55,104 bases of DNA from a virus. The position numbers and the translations under genes were made by a program. Shown piece after piece: positions 7,657 through 30,631 of this stretch; the stretch's first letter is position 1, and each line of letters begins with the position of its first letter. A model generated the notes under the pieces. That model was not told the origin of the DNA. It made no database searches and worked only from the letters and a program-made list of their open reading frames with translations. The stretch lies in the IMG/VR virus record IMGVR_UViG_3300033571_023918, positions 1 through 55,104 of that record. One strand, written 5' to 3'.

Positions 7657-8904
7657 ATGAAAATATTTGTTCAAATAGCCTCTTATAGAGACCCCCAACT
7701 TGTCAGCACTTTAAAGGATATGATTGCAAATGCAAAAAGGCCAAAGAATCTCAGATTTGGTATTGCAAGACAATTTAATTCTGAGGATAAATTTGATGAT
7801 TTAACAGAATATAAAAATGATAAGCGTTTTAGAATTTTAGATATTCCATTTGAAGAGTCTAAAGGTGTTTGTTGGGCAAGAAACTTAACCCAACAAGTTT
7901 ACGAGGGTGAAGAGTACACTATGCAAATTGATTCTCACATGAGATTTGCACCCAATTGGGACGATGAAATGATTAAGATGGTTAAACAACTACAAAAGAA
8001 AGGACACAAGAAACCTTTGTTAACAGGATATGTTTCATCATTTGACCCTGAGAACGACCCAGCTGGTAGAGTTCAAGAACCATGGAGAATGGTGTTTGAT
8101 AGATTTATTCCCGAGGGTGCAGTATTTTTTCTTCCTGAAACAATTCCAGGGTGGAGAGATATGAAAGAACCTGTCACCGCAAGATTTTATTCTGCGCACT
8201 ACGCATTCACTCTTGGACAATTCTCAACGGAGGTTCAACACAATCCTGAATATTATTTCCATGGTGAAGAAATCTCAATTGCCGCAAGAGCATATACTTG
8301 GGGTTATGACTTGTTTCACCCACATAAAGTTCTTATTTGGCACGAGTATACTCGTAAGGGAAGGACCAAACAATGGGATGATGACAAGCAGTGGGTTGAT
8401 AAAAACAACAAGTCTCACCTTACAAATAGAAAATTATTTGGTATGGATGGTGAAACTCAAGAAGGTCACGATGGACCTTTCGGATTTGGAACCGAAAGAA
8501 CTTTAAAAGATTATGAAAAATATTCTGGACTATTGTTTGAAAATCGTGCTGTTCAACAATATACTTTAGATAAAAATTACCCACCTAATCCATACAACTA
8601 TGAGACTGAGGAAGATTGGAAAAAAGATTTTGCCCAAGTATTCAAACATTGTATCGATGTGAATTATGCTAGTGTGCCTGAAAAAGACTATGATTTTTGG
8701 GTTGTTGCCTTCCATGGTTCAGATGACAGTACTTTGTTTAGAAAAGACGCTGACAAATCTGAGATTTCAAGAATGATGAATGACCCTGACAAATATTGTA
8801 AAATTTGGAGAGATTTTCAAACCACACAAAAACCTGCTTATTGGGTTGTTTGGCCACACTCTGAATCTAAGGGATGGTGTGACCGTTTAACAGGAAACTT
8901 GTAA
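7657..8904 (+). CDS. GlcNAc-transferase-like glycosyltransferase (GnT/Skp1 family)
   Basis: This 415-residue protein matches the glycosyltransferase family typified by Skp1-hydroxyproline GlcNAc-transferase. It opens with IFVQIASYRDPQL, has NLRFGIARQ at about 31-39, then an IPFEESKGVCWAR motif (63-75), and an acidic metal-site motif QIDSHMRF with D92. These segments are the family's hallmark order. Members transfer GlcNAc to protein or glycan acceptors from a nucleotide sugar; the acceptor here is unknown. The gene overlaps the next by one base (TAATG), so the four glycosyltransferases are probably co-translated. No membrane segment is seen. The Pro/Thr-rich tail proteins just upstream are candidate acceptors; host surface glycans are the alternative. 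Confidence 0.85.
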   Translation: MKIFVQIASYRDPQLVSTLKDMIANAKRPKNLRFGIARQFNSEDKFDDLTEYKNDKRFRILDIPFEESKGVCWARNLTQQVYEGEEYTMQIDSHMRFAPNWDDEMIKMVKQLQKKGHKKPLLTGYVSSFDPENDPAGRVQEPWRMVFDRFIPEGAVFFLPETIPGWRDMKEPVTARFYSAHYAFTLGQFSTEVQHNPEYYFHGEEISIAARAYTWGYDLFHPHKVLIWHEYTRKGRTKQWDDDKQWVDKNNKSHLTNRKLFGMDGETQEGHDGPFGFGTERTLKDYEKYSGLLFENRAVQQYTLDKNYPPNPYNYETEEDWKKDFAQVFKHCIDVNYASVPEKDYDFWVVAFHGSDDSTLFRKDADKSEISRMMNDPDKYCKIWRDFQTTQKPAYWVVWPHSESKGWCDRLTGNL

Positions 8905-9632
8905 TGGATATTAATAAAATTTACAAGTATATTGTTAATTTAGATAGAAGACCTGACAGGATGCAATCTATTGAATTTGAAATGGATTATATTGGTTGGG
9001 ATTTTGAAAGATTTGGTGCGGTAGATACAAACGACCACGGTGGTTGTTCTTTATCCCATATTGAGATAATAAAAAAAGCAATCGAAAAAGGTTTAGATGA
9101 GGTTATGGTAATTGAAGATGATTGTTCTATTATGCCCTACGCCAAGTCCTTAATTGAAAAGATAACCACCGATACTGAAGGTATTGATTATGGTATTTTT
9201 AATTTATCACCGACACTAAATCGTCCTGTTAATAGAAGTATTCAATATCCAACTTTATTGGATTTAACAAATTTTCCACCGAAATTAGAACATCATAGGG
9301 GTATCTTTGCGACAAATATGATAGTATATCACCATAGTATTTATGATGAGGTATTAAAATTGGAACCTAAAGAAAACTTGGGGTATTATGCAATTGATGA
9401 TTTTATTTACCAATTTATTATGAGTAAAAAACAAAGTTATTCTCCCGTAATACCAATTGCCCCACAAATTAGCGATTGGTCGGATGTGTCTCATGGCGTT
9501 TACAATAATTTTTATACGCAAACATATAATTGGAACCAATATTCACCTATTAAAATCCCTTCGGAGTTTTTGAGTTTAGAACAAAATATTAAAACTAAAC
9601 AAGATAAAATTTTTTCAGAAATTACCATATGA
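8904..9632 (+). CDS. Glycosyltransferase family 25 protein
   Basis: This 242-residue protein begins with the GT25 signature YIVNLDRRPDRMQ at about 8-20. It then has CSLSHIEIIKKAIEKG at about 48-63 and the acidic VIEDDCSI motif near 70-77. Family 25 includes lipo-oligosaccharide galactosyltransferases and the collagen hydroxylysine galactosyltransferases. The length matches short bacterial members. It starts on the last base of the previous stop and ends overlapping the next gene by 4 nt, so it belongs to the cassette. Donor and acceptor cannot be deduced from sequence. Confidence 0.85.
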   Translation: MDINKIYKYIVNLDRRPDRMQSIEFEMDYIGWDFERFGAVDTNDHGGCSLSHIEIIKKAIEKGLDEVMVIEDDCSIMPYAKSLIEKITTDTEGIDYGIFNLSPTLNRPVNRSIQYPTLLDLTNFPPKLEHHRGIFATNMIVYHHSIYDEVLKLEPKENLGYYAIDDFIYQFIMSKKQSYSPVIPIAPQISDWSDVSHGVYNNFYTQTYNWNQYSPIKIPSEFLSLEQNIKTKQDKIFSEITI

Positions 9633-10513
9633 AAACTAAGTTTATTACATGTATCTACTGTGACTTAAATGGTACTGATTTGGGTGGAAGACCAGGTAGA
9701 AACGGACATTATAGATGGAGTCTATTGTCTTTATTGAAGATAACCGATGCTGACTTTTTATGTTATACCTCTAATAGGGAAATTGAGGGGTTAAAAAATT
9801 TTTTTTATGATACCCATAATATTTCGTCGGATAAATTAAAATTTGAAGTTTTTGATATCTCATACACTAAATTTTTCAATTTAATAAATGAATTTAAAGA
9901 TGTCGAAGGTGTAAGAAGGGGTGACCGATGTATGGAGATACAATATTCCAAGTTCCACTGGTGGTGGAATGAGGATAAAAGTTATGATTACTATTACTGG
10001 ATTGATGCGGGCCTTTCCCATACAGGATTAATTCCAAACAAATATTTGGTTGGAACACACCCAGAGCGCAGGTATTATGAATCGACACTTTTCAACAATG
10101 ATTTTTTAAGAAATGTAATACAAGACACTGGAGATAAATTCCTTATGTTAGCTAAAGAAAATGTAAATTATTATTGGTCGGGCACAGTAAACAGAAATTG
10201 GTATACAAATTTATATGACCCTTCTCTTCATGTTATTGGTGGAATGTTTGGCGGTCATAAATCAAAATGGGATGACATTGTTAATATTTTTGAAGATTAT
10301 TTACAAAAAATTATTTCAACAGATAAAACACTTCCACACGAGGAAAATATTATGTCATTGATGCGTGTTAATCATCCTGAGTTATTTGAAATAAAACAGT
10401 TCGATATTTGGTGGTGTCCTGACTCTGGTCCGAGGGATTTAAACGTTTCATATTATGAAGATAAAAAAAGTTTTTATAGAATATTAGAAGAATTTAATAG
10501 AATTTATGAATAA
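9629..10513 (+). CDS. HtrL/YibB-like glycosyltransferase
   Basis: This 294-residue protein resembles the HtrL/YibB (WlaTC-type) family. It has a YYYWIDAGLSH motif (around residue 120-130) and the glycine-rich IGGMFGG near residue 204-211, followed by an EEN-x-MSLM stretch. The same WIDAG and GG-x-FGG landmarks occur in the next gene, so the two are paralogues. Family members sit in surface-polysaccharide loci and are presumed sugar transferases; this is established only weakly. The start overlaps the previous gene by 4 nt and the stop overlaps the next by 8 nt. Confidence 0.65.
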   Translation: MKTKFITCIYCDLNGTDLGGRPGRNGHYRWSLLSLLKITDADFLCYTSNREIEGLKNFFYDTHNISSDKLKFEVFDISYTKFFNLINEFKDVEGVRRGDRCMEIQYSKFHWWWNEDKSYDYYYWIDAGLSHTGLIPNKYLVGTHPERRYYESTLFNNDFLRNVIQDTGDKFLMLAKENVNYYWSGTVNRNWYTNLYDPSLHVIGGMFGGHKSKWDDIVNIFEDYLQKIISTDKTLPHEENIMSLMRVNHPELFEIKQFDIWWCPDSGPRDLNVSYYEDKKSFYRILEEFNRIYE

Positions 10514-12176
10514 AGTTACTTTCGTTACGGGCCTTTGGAATATAAAAAGGGATGAACTCCAAGAGGGTTGGTCTCGTTCATTTCAGCACTATTTAGATAA
10601 ATTTGAACAACTACTTCAAATCGACGCCAACCTAATTATTTTTGGGGAAAAAGAACTTGAAGGGTTTGTTTGGGAAAGAAGGGGTCGTGAAAACACTCAG
10701 TTTATCGTTAGGGACCAATCTTGGTTTAAAAATGATTTTTACGACAAAATTCAAAAAATTAGAACCAATCCTGAATGGTTTAATCAATCAGGTTGGTTAC
10801 CCGAATCAACTCAGTCTCGTTTGGATATGTATAACCCTTTGGTTATGTCTAAAATGTTTTTACTTAACGATGCGAGGATTTTTGACTCTTTTGATTCGAC
10901 CCATATGTTTTGGATTGATGCAGGTATAACAAATACGGTTCATCCTGGATATTTTACTCATGATAAAATTCACCATAAGTTTCATAATCTCTTCAGTAAG
11001 TTTGGGTTTGTTGCCTTTCCTTATGCCGCTGAAAAAGAAATTCATGGTTTTACTTATCCTAAAATCAACAACTACGCAGGAAACCATGTAAAACTTGTTT
11101 GTCGTGGTGGAATCTTCGGTGGTAGTAAAGATAGTATTTCTGATGTCAATGGACTTTATTACAATCTGATGAATCAAACTCTATCGGATGGTCTTATGGG
11201 TACAGAAGAATCTTTATTCAGTATTCTTCTTTATCGGCACCCCGATATTTTTGACTACTATGAAATTGAGTCAAACGGACTTATCGGTAAATTTTGTGAA
11301 GATGTCAAAAACGACACCCATAAAGTTAAAAATACTCAGGGCAAAGTCGCATATTCTGATTTGAATATTGATAACTCAGCACTGTATGTAATTACATTTA
11401 ATAGTCCTAATCAGTTTGAGACTTTAATTAAATCAATGGAAATGTATGATAGAAACTTTTTAGATAAACCAAAAAAGTTCTTGTTAGATAATTCATCAGA
11501 TTTAACTACTACTGAAAGATATAAAGAGTTGTGTGATGAATTTGGTTTCGAACATATCAAAAAGGATAACTTAGGAATTTGTGGCGGAAGACAATGGATT
11601 GCCGAGCACTCTCAGGAGAACAAATTTGATTTCTATTGGTTCTTTGAAGATGATATGTTTTTTTATGGTGGTGCTAATGAAACTTGTAAAAATGGTTTTG
11701 TAAGAAAAATTCCTGACCTCTACAACAAATCAATTCAAATTGCCAAAAAAGAATCCTTGGATTTTATAAAACTCAATTTTACCGAATTTTATGGTGACAA
11801 TGGTACTCAATGGTCTTGGTATAATGTACCTCAGCATATTAGAGAGGAGTATTGGCCCGAAAAATCTACTCTTCCAGTACAAGGATTAGACCCCAATGCT
11901 CCAAGAACTAAGTTTAATGAAGTCCGTTCTTTCAAAGGATTAGCTTATGGTATAGGTGAGGTGTATTATTGCAATTGGCCACAAGTGGTTTCAAGATACG
12001 GAAACGAAAAAATGTTCCTCACCACAAAGTGGGATAGACCCTTTGAACAAACTTGGATGAGTTACATTTATCAAGAAACAAAAAAAGGGAACATCAAACC
12101 CTCACTGTTATTTGCAACACCTACCGAACACGATAGATTCGAATTCTACGATGGAAAGTTAAGAAAAGAGTCCTAA
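10506..12176 (+). CDS. Two-domain glycosyltransferase (HtrL-like + GT-A-like)
   Basis: This 556-residue protein appears to be a fusion. Residues about 1-285 are HtrL/YibB-like, with MFWIDAGITN, GGIFGGS and EESLFSILLYRHP. Residues about 290-556 look like a GT-A fold family 2-type transferase. They start with ALYVITFNSPNQFETLIKSM, followed by a conserved region ending in FYWFFEDDMFF, where EDD stands in the place of a DXD metal motif. It is the last of four overlapping genes. A bifunctional enzyme adding two sugars in sequence is plausible but inferred. The next gene starts 18 nt after the stop behind its own promoter-like element. Confidence 0.65.
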   Translation: MNKVTFVTGLWNIKRDELQEGWSRSFQHYLDKFEQLLQIDANLIIFGEKELEGFVWERRGRENTQFIVRDQSWFKNDFYDKIQKIRTNPEWFNQSGWLPESTQSRLDMYNPLVMSKMFLLNDARIFDSFDSTHMFWIDAGITNTVHPGYFTHDKIHHKFHNLFSKFGFVAFPYAAEKEIHGFTYPKINNYAGNHVKLVCRGGIFGGSKDSISDVNGLYYNLMNQTLSDGLMGTEESLFSILLYRHPDIFDYYEIESNGLIGKFCEDVKNDTHKVKNTQGKVAYSDLNIDNSALYVITFNSPNQFETLIKSMEMYDRNFLDKPKKFLLDNSSDLTTTERYKELCDEFGFEHIKKDNLGICGGRQWIAEHSQENKFDFYWFFEDDMFFYGGANETCKNGFVRKIPDLYNKSIQIAKKESLDFIKLNFTEFYGDNGTQWSWYNVPQHIREEYWPEKSTLPVQGLDPNAPRTKFNEVRSFKGLAYGIGEVYYCNWPQVVSRYGNEKMFLTTKWDRPFEQTWMSYIYQETKKGNIKPSLLFATPTEHDRFEFYDGKLRKES

Positions 12177-27428: not shown

Positions 27429-27917
27429 ATGGCGGATTTATTAATGAAAATGCCGATTCCTTACGAACCAAAAAGACAAAACAGGTTCATATTAAGGTTT
27501 CCATCATCTTTGGGTATAAATGAGTGGTTTGTAGAATCTACTGCAAGACCCCACATCATCATCAACCCAACAGAAATTCAGTTTTTGAACACCTCAACCT
27601 ATGTTGCTGGTAGATTTAACTGGCAAACTATTCCTGTAACCTTCCGTGACCCAATCGGACCTTCTGCAGCACAGGCTCTTATGGAGTGGGTTCGTCTCCA
27701 CGCGGAATCGGTAACGGGTCGTATGGGATATGCGGCGGGATACAAAAAAGATATTGACTTAGAGATGTTAGACCCAACAGGGGTGGTTGTGGAAAAATGG
27801 ATTCTCTATGGTACATTCCTTACAGATGTTAACTTCAACACTTTAAACTACTCTCAAGATGGATTGGCGACAATTGGTGCAACTTTGAGAATGGACCGTT
27901 GTGTGTTGATTTACTAA
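27429..27917 (+). CDS. 19: Tail tube protein (gp19-like)
   Basis: This 162-residue protein is the inner tube subunit. It opens with PYEPKRQNRFILRFPSSLG and continues with the FVESTARP strand-turn. It then has a fold-typical IPVTFRDPIGPSAAQALMEW and ends with WILYGTFLTDVNFNTLNYS and a final strand. Size and order match T4 gp19 (163 residues). The gene has its own candidate late element and a hairpin after it, so it can be expressed at higher level than the following assembly genes. Confidence 0.95.
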   Translation: MADLLMKMPIPYEPKRQNRFILRFPSSLGINEWFVESTARPHIIINPTEIQFLNTSTYVAGRFNWQTIPVTFRDPIGPSAAQALMEWVRLHAESVTGRMGYAAGYKKDIDLEMLDPTGVVVEKWILYGTFLTDVNFNTLNYSQDGLATIGATLRMDRCVLIY

Positions 27918-27988: not shown

Positions 27989-28732
27989 ATGGACCAAGAA
28001 ACTATTAATTACGGACAACAACAATTTACATTGCCACACGATGTGGTACCCCTTCCATCCAAGGGAATGTTTTATAAAAATAAAAAATCATCTTTAAAGG
28101 TTGGTTATTTGACTGCTAGTGATGAAAATATTTTGATTGCGGGTGGTAAAGACATGACAACCAATCTTCTTCGTTCAAAGATATACGAACCTGGTGTAAG
28201 ACCCGAGGATTTATTGGAGGGTGACATTGAGTCGATTCTCATTTTTCTTAGAAACACAGCCTTTGGACCAAATATCGAATTGAATTTGACTGACCCAAAA
28301 ACAAATAGAAAGTTCACGGCTAATGAAAGACTTGATGAACTTAACATCGTTAGTGGTAATGAACCAAATGAAGACGGTACATTTACCACAAAACTTCCAG
28401 TGTCCGAAAAAACCGTAAAGTTGAAACCACTTAATTTCGGTGAAGTCACCGAAATCAATAATTTATCTGAAACTTATCCTCAAGGAAGAGTCGCACCAAT
28501 TAGAACTTGGAGACTACAGAGAGAAATAGTTGAAGTAGATGGTACTCAAGACAAAGTAGAAATTCAAAAGTTTGCTGAAACAATGCCGTTTGCGGATTCT
28601 AAGTACATAAAAAAATTCATGAATGAAAACGTACCTCGATTAGATATGAATCGAGTGATTATTGCCCCGTCAGGAGAAAAGCTATTGGTTAACATCGGCT
28701 TCGGGGTAGACTTTTTTCGTCCTTTCTTCTGA
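27989..28732 (+). CDS. 26: gp26-like baseplate/tail assembly protein (zero-frame product)
   Basis: This 247-residue product resembles the T4 gp26 family. It contains VPLPSKGMFY at about 21-30, a middle with GYLTASDENILI and LEGDIESILIFLRN, then KPLNFGEVTEI and a C-terminal region ending GFGVDFFRPFF. The VPLPSKG opening and the D-E-x-x-L motif are the family hallmarks. The gene lies between the tail tube and the tape measure, where many phages keep their tail-assembly chaperones. The zero frame stops at 28730-28732. A 47-residue continuation in the +1 frame looks like the normal C-terminus of this family, so a longer product is likely (see the separate entry). The shorter form may be a distinct functional product or a sequencing artefact. 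Confidence 0.75.
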   Translation: MDQETINYGQQQFTLPHDVVPLPSKGMFYKNKKSSLKVGYLTASDENILIAGGKDMTTNLLRSKIYEPGVRPEDLLEGDIESILIFLRNTAFGPNIELNLTDPKTNRKFTANERLDELNIVSGNEPNEDGTFTTKLPVSEKTVKLKPLNFGEVTEINNLSETYPQGRVAPIRTWRLQREIVEVDGTQDKVEIQKFAETMPFADSKYIKKFMNENVPRLDMNRVIIAPSGEKLLVNIGFGVDFFRPFF

Positions 28733-28874
28733 TTATAGAAAAAATCAAATAGACGAGTTTTATTATTTGTCTAAAATATTTTCAATACCATATTCAGATT
28801 TTATGAGTATGCCAATTTTTATACGAAAGTATCTCTTGGATAAGTGGGTTGAAGACAATCAAAAAAAATCATAA
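28710..28874 (+). other. 26: Probable frameshifted C-terminal extension of the gp26-like gene
   Basis: The +1 frame is open from 28710 to the TAA at 28872-28874. It encodes DYRKNQIDEFYYL and then PYSDFMSMPIFIRKYLLDK, which is typical of the C-termini of gp26-like proteins. It has no useful start codon of its own. The two frames overlap for only 20 nt (28710-28729), which contains six T (28712-28717) and ends in TTC TGA. A +1 or -2 shift in this window would make a protein of about 290 residues. A base-calling error in the T-run is the main alternative. Confidence 0.65.
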
Positions 28875-28903: not shown

Positions 28904-30631
28904 ATGGCAGATGAGGATTTAGGGTTTTTGGGTAATTTAAAATCACTTCTTGGTGAGTCCGCTGATTTGGTGGGCAATATAGGTAGGATACAAGATGGTA
29001 TTACCACTATTAACAGGTCTTTTGGAGAATCTCGTGCAAGATTTCTCGAATTTTCAACTGCAGTATCTGATGGGGTTGCGGATTTCGTTAGACTTGGTGG
29101 TTCTGCTGAAGAGTTAAGTAAAACAATTGCTGAAGTTGGTGAAGGTGCTCGGAGAAATGTTGTTGCATCACAAGAGTCTTTACAGGAAATTTTCGCAACA
29201 TCTGAATTCCTTACCAAAGATGTTAATTTTTTAGTTGAGCAATTTGGTAGTGTTGGTGTTGAACTTTCAAATATAGGCGAAGGTGTTGAAGAATCCGTAG
29301 GTTATGTTCAATCGTTAGGATTAAATGCGGTTCAAATCATGGGTGATGTTGTCAACAAAGTTGATATGATGAATCGTTTCAATTTCCAAGATGGTGTTGT
29401 TGGATTTACCAAAATGGCAGCTCAAGCTTCGATGCTCAGGTTTGACATGCAAGTAACTTCGGATTTTGCTGAAAAAGTTTTAAATCCTGAAGGAGCAATA
29501 CAGATGGCGGCAGCATTTCAAAGATTGGGTGTTGCCTCAGGAGATTTAGTGGACCCGTTTATTTTAATGGATAAATCAATCAATGACCCAAAAGGATTAC
29601 AGGATTCATTAATTGAAATGACTAAACAATTTACCTACTTCGATGAGAAGACGGGTAATTTCAGAATCAATCCGGGTGGAGTAAGATTGATGAAGGAACT
29701 TGCCGAAGCTGCGGGAATGTCATTTGAACAGTTTTCAAAGACAGCATTAGCGGCTTCTGATTTAGATAGACGATTAGGTGAAATATCCTTCGACATAAGA
29801 GGTAGCGAAGAGGATAAAATGTTGGTGGCTAACATGTCAAAAATGGGCGAGGGGGGTCGTTATGAAGTACAATTCAGAGACGAAACCGGTAAACTCCAAA
29901 CAGAAAGTTTAGACAAATTATCTCAGTCTCAATTCGAACTTATCAAACAACAAGCTGCAGATAGACCCAAGTCGATGGAAGATATTGCTCGAAGTCAATT
30001 AGATACTAGTGATATAATGGCACGAGACATAGCAGCACTCCCCATGAGATTGAGTTATGCGTTAGCAGGTCAAGAAGGATTACAACGAGCCATAGAATAT
30101 GCCAGAACAGAAGAAGGAAAAATAGCGGATGCTGCTTTTAGTCCTGGCGCATTACCTACAGGAGAAGAATTTAGGAAAGAATTTCAAAATTTCGGGGATG
30201 TGGTTGGAACTTCGATTATGAGTTTACTTAAAGGAGAAGGGTCAATCGAAGATGTCTTATCAACAATGAAAACAGCCTCAGAGGAACAAACAATAAGTTT
30301 GGACTTAGCTCAAAGATATCAGACCTTTCTTGCTAAATATAGTGAAAATAGTGCTCAAAGAGAGAGTCTTCAAAGTATTTCAAGAATCGGGGAACAGACT
30401 GATACAAGATATCAGAATTGGGAACAATACCAAAAACAAACTTCAACAACAGAAACTATCACAGGAAATGTTAATGTTGATGGGAATTTTACTATCGATG
30501 TAAAAGCCCCAACAAATTTGAGTGAACAACAAATCTTTAATATATTCAATAGCCCTGAAATTAAAGATAATATCTATAAGATTGTTAAGATTAAAACAGA
30601 GGCGGCAATTAAAGAATTGTCAAAAAAATAA
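28904..30631 (+). CDS. 29: Tape measure protein (gp29-like)
   Basis: This 575-residue protein is mainly helical, with Ala, Gly, Gln and Glu rich sections, and no enzyme motif. It occupies the tape-measure position after the gp26-like gene and before the baseplate tube genes. T4 gp29 has 590 residues. With about 1.5 angstrom of tail per residue, a tail of T4-like length would result. The hydrophobic stretch at 120-150 (VELSNIGEGVEESVG, then ALG-type helices) may be the membrane-interacting part. The C-terminal end (NVDGNFTIDVKAPTNLSEQQ) is a small beta/helix segment likely to contact the baseplate hub. Confidence 0.75.
   Translation: MADEDLGFLGNLKSLLGESADLVGNIGRIQDGITTINRSFGESRARFLEFSTAVSDGVADFVRLGGSAEELSKTIAEVGEGARRNVVASQESLQEIFATSEFLTKDVNFLVEQFGSVGVELSNIGEGVEESVGYVQSLGLNAVQIMGDVVNKVDMMNRFNFQDGVVGFTKMAAQASMLRFDMQVTSDFAEKVLNPEGAIQMAAAFQRLGVASGDLVDPFILMDKSINDPKGLQDSLIEMTKQFTYFDEKTGNFRINPGGVRLMKELAEAAGMSFEQFSKTALAASDLDRRLGEISFDIRGSEEDKMLVANMSKMGEGGRYEVQFRDETGKLQTESLDKLSQSQFELIKQQAADRPKSMEDIARSQLDTSDIMARDIAALPMRLSYALAGQEGLQRAIEYARTEEGKIADAAFSPGALPTGEEFRKEFQNFGDVVGTSIMSLLKGEGSIEDVLSTMKTASEEQTISLDLAQRYQTFLAKYSENSAQRESLQSISRIGEQTDTRYQNWEQYQKQTSTTETITGNVNVDGNFTIDVKAPTNLSEQQIFNIFNSPEIKDNIYKIVKIKTEAAIKELSKK

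Follow-up and report, generated by a model that had tools for sequence, protein, structure and literature searches.

Gene arrangement at the locus

Between positions 27989 and 28874 of the window, by which we mean the whole 55,104-nt stretch of viral DNA analysed here, lies what is, judged from its sequence, a single gene for a tail assembly chaperone of the T4 gp26/gp51 family. Its coding sequence is divided between two frames, and its surroundings are as follows.

27429-27917, plus strand: tail tube gene, the upstream neighbour (phrog_4542, E 8.7e-24)
27989-28732, plus strand: 0-frame ORF, putative short tail assembly chaperone (TAC-N, 247 aa), T4 gp26-like (PF12322, PHROG_150, 106 loci)
28719-28874, plus strand: +1-frame coding part of the putative long form (TAC-NC, total length 294 aa); frame open in every complete relative, with a median omega of 0.35
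28904-30631, plus strand: candidate tape measure gene, the downstream neighbour, 575 aa (by position alone)

The 0-frame product matches PF12322 (E 2.1e-6, 28 bits, with a cutoff of 24.5) and PHROG_150 (E 2.9e-9, 37.8 bits), in agreement with the gp26-like assembly gene proposed in an earlier reading of this DNA (the sequence-only reading), and is closed by TGA at 28730-28732. A TAG lies in the +1 frame 20 nt before this stop, after which the frame is open as far as TAA 28872-28874, where the C-terminal tail domain of the long form (VLSSDYRKN...EDNQKKS) ends; 47 codons of this frame lie beyond the 0-frame stop. The earliest start-type codon of the +1 frame is a TTG deep within the tail, so that no start could yield the whole tail domain, and the -1 frame of the gene shuts 20 nt past the 0-frame stop. 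The place of the zero-frame stop, the 47-residue +1 tail, the lack of a start of its own and the 20-nt overlap of the frames had all been described correctly by the sequence-only reading.

The 575-aa ORF at 28904-30631 has no convincing Pfam or PHROG match, and two relatives (L117 and L120) carry an annotated tape measure at the equivalent place. No second full-length PF12322 gene was found among the ORFs scanned in the window, the record being a 55-kb fragment. Elsewhere on this phage contig are an ORF with Fe/Mn superoxide dismutase domains (PF02777, PF00081; 17607-19133, minus strand), a small SET-domain protein that is a possible protein methyltransferase (PF00856; 20928-21323, minus strand), and a block of sugar-transfer-like genes at 7657-12176 with matches to GlcNAc transferase (PF11397), glycosyltransferase 25 (PF01755) and HtrL_YibB (PF09612).

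Conservation of the split and selection on the tail

Relatives were gathered by a scan of IMG/VR, which gave 28, and by a profile scan, from which the best 80 loci were taken; the close family comprises the 106 loci that were inspected, with 71 representatives under 85% nucleotide identity. All 106 have the split at the same 0-frame end and a tail open in +1, a count whose members are related and not independent of each other. An alignment with related phages, which the sequence-only reading had suggested as a check, thus finds the split kept throughout, and an intact single frame, which it had named as a refutation, occurs in none of the 106; T4 gp51 is intact, but there gp26 is a separate short paralogue. 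In a blind pattern search, 76 of the 78 sites checked among the matches listed had the full arrangement and the other two run off the contig end, and overall the same split is present in more than 100 contigs and in isolates.

The tail itself is under purifying selection, as judged from a median pairwise omega of 0.35 in the +1 frame, where the two shifted frames give about 1.0 and 1.26, and from stops per codon of 0 in +1 versus 0.09 and 0.12 in the other two. Outside the close family the tail is also in +1 in Mel-JY01, LR756508, GXN1, SP-15, LIS04 and immuto, and a profile search of genome contigs gave one match, on an Erysipelotrichaceae MAG contig, with the tail in +1 and the site TTT TTT CGT.

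The proposed shift site

The region of frame overlap holds a run of six T (28712-28717) followed by CGTCCTTTCTTC TGA, and the candidate site of shifting lies at the end of this run.

28712-28720, plus strand: shift site UUU UUU CGU (TTT 71/71, CGN 71/71)

Here the P-site codon UUU (28715-28717) can re-pair on UUC (28716-28718), with CGU (28718-28720) as the A-site codon. The consensus of the 71 representatives is TT(T/C) TTT CGN, continued in most by CCT TTC TTC, the conservation of which is partly explained by the overlap of 0-frame and +1 coding past the slip codon. Every representative has TTT as its second Phe codon, and elsewhere in these genes Phe is written TTC in 166/653 cases; the following codon is likewise always CGN, and elsewhere Arg is written CGN in only 88/666. 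The two Arg codons of lowest use, CGG and CGC, occupy 47/71 sites versus 5/666 elsewhere (per 1000 codons of the window each of the two is used 0.7 times, and CGU 5.4 times). All four CGN codons are present among the relatives, and CG is fixed while the first +1 residue differs. The sequence UUU_C, on which re-pairing of tRNA-Phe is possible, is common to nearly all +1 members, the exceptions being Mel-JY01 (UUU_U) and LIS04 (UUU_A).

The sequence-only reading had described the overlap as six T followed by TTC TGA. The T-run is real, but two places were merged in this description, as the site is TTT_CGN and TTC TGA is not universal. A slip at TTC_TGA was considered and rejected, since members with GGA TTA TAG in place of TGA retain the tail and UUC is unable to re-pair on UCU in +1.

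The upstream hairpin

At synonymous sites the best conserved codons of the gene include those of Ala226, Ser228, Gly229 and Gly239, all 5' of the slip codon, and in this region a hairpin is predicted.

28664-28668, plus strand: hairpin 5' arm GCCCC (conserved stem, covariation)
28670-28678, plus strand: conserved hairpin-loop motif TCAGGAGAA (codons of S228 and G229, which rank with the best conserved of the gene at synonymous sites)
28703-28707, plus strand: hairpin 3' arm GGGGT, ending 7 nt before the P-site codon (conserved stem, covariation)

The stem has 5 bp, GCC-CC pairing with GGG-GT, and is the only stem that RNAalifold predicts from the 71-row alignment, apart from one weaker pair. 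In that alignment 99.7% of stem cells are paired, versus 21-66% in slid versions, and the covariation score is 0.138 versus 0.087 for shuffled alignments (0 of 500), although kinship among the sequences inflates such covariation counts. The pair -49/-10 joins two third codon positions and is C-G in 66 sequences and A-U in exactly four (L022, L023, L086 and L106), L025 having a G.G mismatch, while L165 has compensatory changes at two adjacent stem pairs; L022/L023, L086/L106 and L165 look like separate compensatory events. At 51 further distinct sites, outside the set in which the stem was discovered, the pairs from -50/-9 to -47/-12 are kept in all. The evidence for the hairpin is covariation and not energy, since, folded as a single sequence, the window does no better than its shuffles (z -0.98). 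This hairpin was not detected in the +1 members further removed from the clade; single-sequence folds of L032, L030 and L120 give differing stems close 5' of the slip codon.

Two other roles for these sequences were considered and set aside. A pseudoknot between TCAGGAGAA and TTCTTCTGA has 90.6% of its cells paired yet almost no covariation, and changes of the stop codon break its pairing. A Shine-Dalgarno reading of GGGGT is less likely, as the 3'-arm variants GGUGU/GGUGC and GGACC depart from GGGG yet still pair within the hairpin. The loop motif at 28670-28678 is itself too distant upstream for Shine-Dalgarno action at the slip codon. As a part of this shift signal the hairpin is apparently new.

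Relation to T4 gp26 and gp51 and to members with a -1 shift

T4 gp26 and gp51 are listed as hub assembly chaperones (PMC3004832), and Vladimirov, Gautam and Davidson (2022, Virology 566:9-15) are reported, in papers that cite them, to have identified the tail assembly chaperones of T4-like phages. Citing that work, later papers describe a short gene together with a fused long gene in some T4-like phages (PMC10885494) and polyT -1 signals in others (PMC12846349). The identity of the gene and the logic of its two products are thus already known. Like the window gene, the T4 pair combines PF12322 and PHROG_150 with a short and a long form, gp26 spanning PHROG_150 14-235, ending KEFFELL and resembling the short form, and gp51 spanning 13-280 and resembling the long form, with a C-terminus to which the tail is homologous.

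Other T4-like phages checked differ from the window clade in that their tail lies in the -1 frame and the homologous FF reads U UUU UUC or U UUU UUU (LR756511, Atu_ph07, Bellamy, KVP40, Aeh1, HTVC008M, Cr30, Mendera, Syn19, phiM7 and LPCS28); this heptamer (U UUU UUY) is that of the chaperones of cyanophages, KVP40 and Aeh1, unlike the window, whose tail is in +1. An HMM built from nine tails of the -1 type matches gp51 at 200-246 with 26.4 bits and recovers seven window-clade tails above the inclusion threshold (the top one, L022, at 26 bits), and it is through these clade members that the homology of the window's own tail to gp51 and the -1 tails runs. An HMM of window-clade tails alone did not reach gp51, and no match came from comparing single T4 sequences with the fused family by hhalign. 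The predicted fold of the fused product of a CGG-type relative, L070 (pLDDT 70, pTM 0.53), was searched with Foldseek, and the named matches were mostly gp26-like baseplate hub proteins. The best structural match, BFVD A0A6J5LCY0, is a short form only.

On a 35-row tree the three states (+1, -1 and two genes) need 3 changes, the minimum possible being 2. T4 gp26 and gp51 are sisters (96/89) within a Straboviridae -1 clade (95/89), although gp51 sits on a long branch and its exact position is unsure; with the pair nested in this -1 clade, T4 has most likely lost shifting through duplication. Streptococcus phage vB_SagM-GXN1 (L031, PQ819873) groups with Bacillus SP-15, Listeria LIS04 and the Erysipelotrichaceae MAG contig (94/99), which suggests a Gram-positive branch of the +1 type. 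The same pair of proteins is apparently made in three ways in one family, namely by +1 at UUU_CGN, by -1 at U UUU UUY and from the T4 paralogues.

The public records of L118, L119, L243 and L030 show the tail annotated as a separate 'gp51', as a hypothetical protein, or not at all. In several public records the C-terminal part of these chaperones is absent or miscalled as a small gene standing alone.

Proposed mechanism and alternative explanations

The conserved split, the selected tail, the invariant slip site, the covarying hairpin and the family membership, established by sequence comparison, support the programmed frameshift put forward in the sequence-only reading, which missed the exact site UUU_CGN, the upstream hairpin and the relation to gp51. 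We consider it very probable that +1 programmed ribosomal frameshifting gives a short and a long chaperone. The course of events that we infer, including the shift and its rate, its stimulation by the hairpin and the roles of the two products, would be as follows. The majority of ribosomes would terminate at 28730 and release the short form (TAC-N), and a fraction would shift +1 at UUU_CGU, the P-site tRNA-Phe moving from UUU (28715-28717) to UUC (28716-28718) while a rare CGN codon stands in the A site, and would continue in +1 to 28874 to make the long form (TAC-NC). The hairpin 28664-28668/28703-28707 would fold again behind the ribosome and promote slippage in the forward direction. If the two products act as lambda G and GT do, the short form in many copies may coat the tape measure protein, and the long form in few copies may recruit tube subunits. 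Counting against the frameshift reading, PA-X-type sites shift at only ~1% in eukaryotic systems (PMC3498833).

A -2 ribosomal frameshift on the T-run, of the type known in phage Mu (PMC5009743), would enter the same frame and add one residue; TTT TTT C in the window permits tRNA-Phe to re-pair two bases back. Such re-pairing is impossible with the TTC TTT CG of L060, L082, L100 and, outside the clade, GXN1, and equally with the TTT CTT or TTT CTA of L026, immuto and LR756508, and in both groups UUU_C is kept, which makes a -2 shift very unlikely. We regard it as very improbable, too, that the tail is a separate small gene with its own start and is never fused. It is annotated as its own small ORF in Bellamy, HTVC008M and Mel-JY01, but the +1 frame of the window has no start codon before the internal TTG, the open +1 frame of the relatives starts 5' of the shift site, the tail is fused to the N-domain in T4 gp51, and a separate gene would leave the conservation of the slip site and hairpin unexplained.

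Transcriptional slippage on the T-run, which would give mRNAs with an altered number of U, could draw on the six-T run of most members. Six T is short for slippage by bacterial RNA polymerase, however, and the run is broken (TTC TTT) in L060, L082, L100 and GXN1 with the architecture unchanged; as slippage would also leave CGN and the hairpin unexplained, its likelihood is slighter still. An assembly error or a dead gene, in which an indel in the T-run (a usual spot for such errors) had split one frame, can be dismissed for practical purposes because the split recurs in relatives, including isolates, and the tail is under selection and free of +1 stops.

Comparison with known frameshift systems

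The preferred reading, a +1 shift at UUU_CGN, has precedents outside the bacterial phages. UUU_CGN has been demonstrated as the +1 site of influenza A PA-X (PMC3498833) and proposed as that of plant amalgaviruses, among which all four CGN codons are used (PMC5052127). These sites share with the window a P-site UUU, an A-site CGN and a +1 slip of tRNA-Phe onto UUC, and differ in belonging to eukaryotic RNA viruses and ribosomes and to genes unrelated to that of the window; the E-site codon is UCC in influenza and UUU or UUC in the window clade. The many sequences of the clade form a natural alignment for the study of a PA-X-type +1 site with bacterial ribosomes, and the 5' hairpin is open to test. 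A +1 shift at TTT-CGC has also been proposed, in the available part of PMC7230728, for the tail chaperone of the haloarchaeal HSTV-2 / HF1 group, which is like the window in its UUU_CGN site and in the place of the gene between tube and tape measure (in the window a candidate tape measure). Its hosts are archaeal, its protein has no similarity to that of the window by eye, and, unlike in the window clade, an upstream hairpin is not described in that part of the paper. Among open-licence papers we found no account of UUU_CGN in bacterial phages, and one may exist elsewhere. We give about even odds to the broader proposal that UUU_CGN together with a hairpin re-forming behind the ribosome and pulling the mRNA forward is a class of bacterial-phage +1 recoding signal, which would have evolved where the family elsewhere uses a -1 shift or duplication.

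Frameshifting commonly produces the tail assembly chaperones of phages, T4 being the stated exception (PMC5009743), and the duplication reading of T4 bears on this claim that it stands apart from G/GT frameshifting. As proposed for the window, where the tape measure is a candidate, lambda G/GT yields two chaperone forms from one frameshifted gene between tube and tape measure (PMC5009743). The lambda shift is -1, and the sequence is unrelated to the window gene. In Escherichia coli prfB a +1 shift takes place at CUU_UGA, which a Shine-Dalgarno-like element precedes by 3 nt, and the proposal made here resembles it in that +1 P-site slippage is aided by an element upstream and by slow decoding of the A-site codon. 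The window clade differs from prfB in that its A-site codon is a sense codon and its upstream element pairs as a hairpin.
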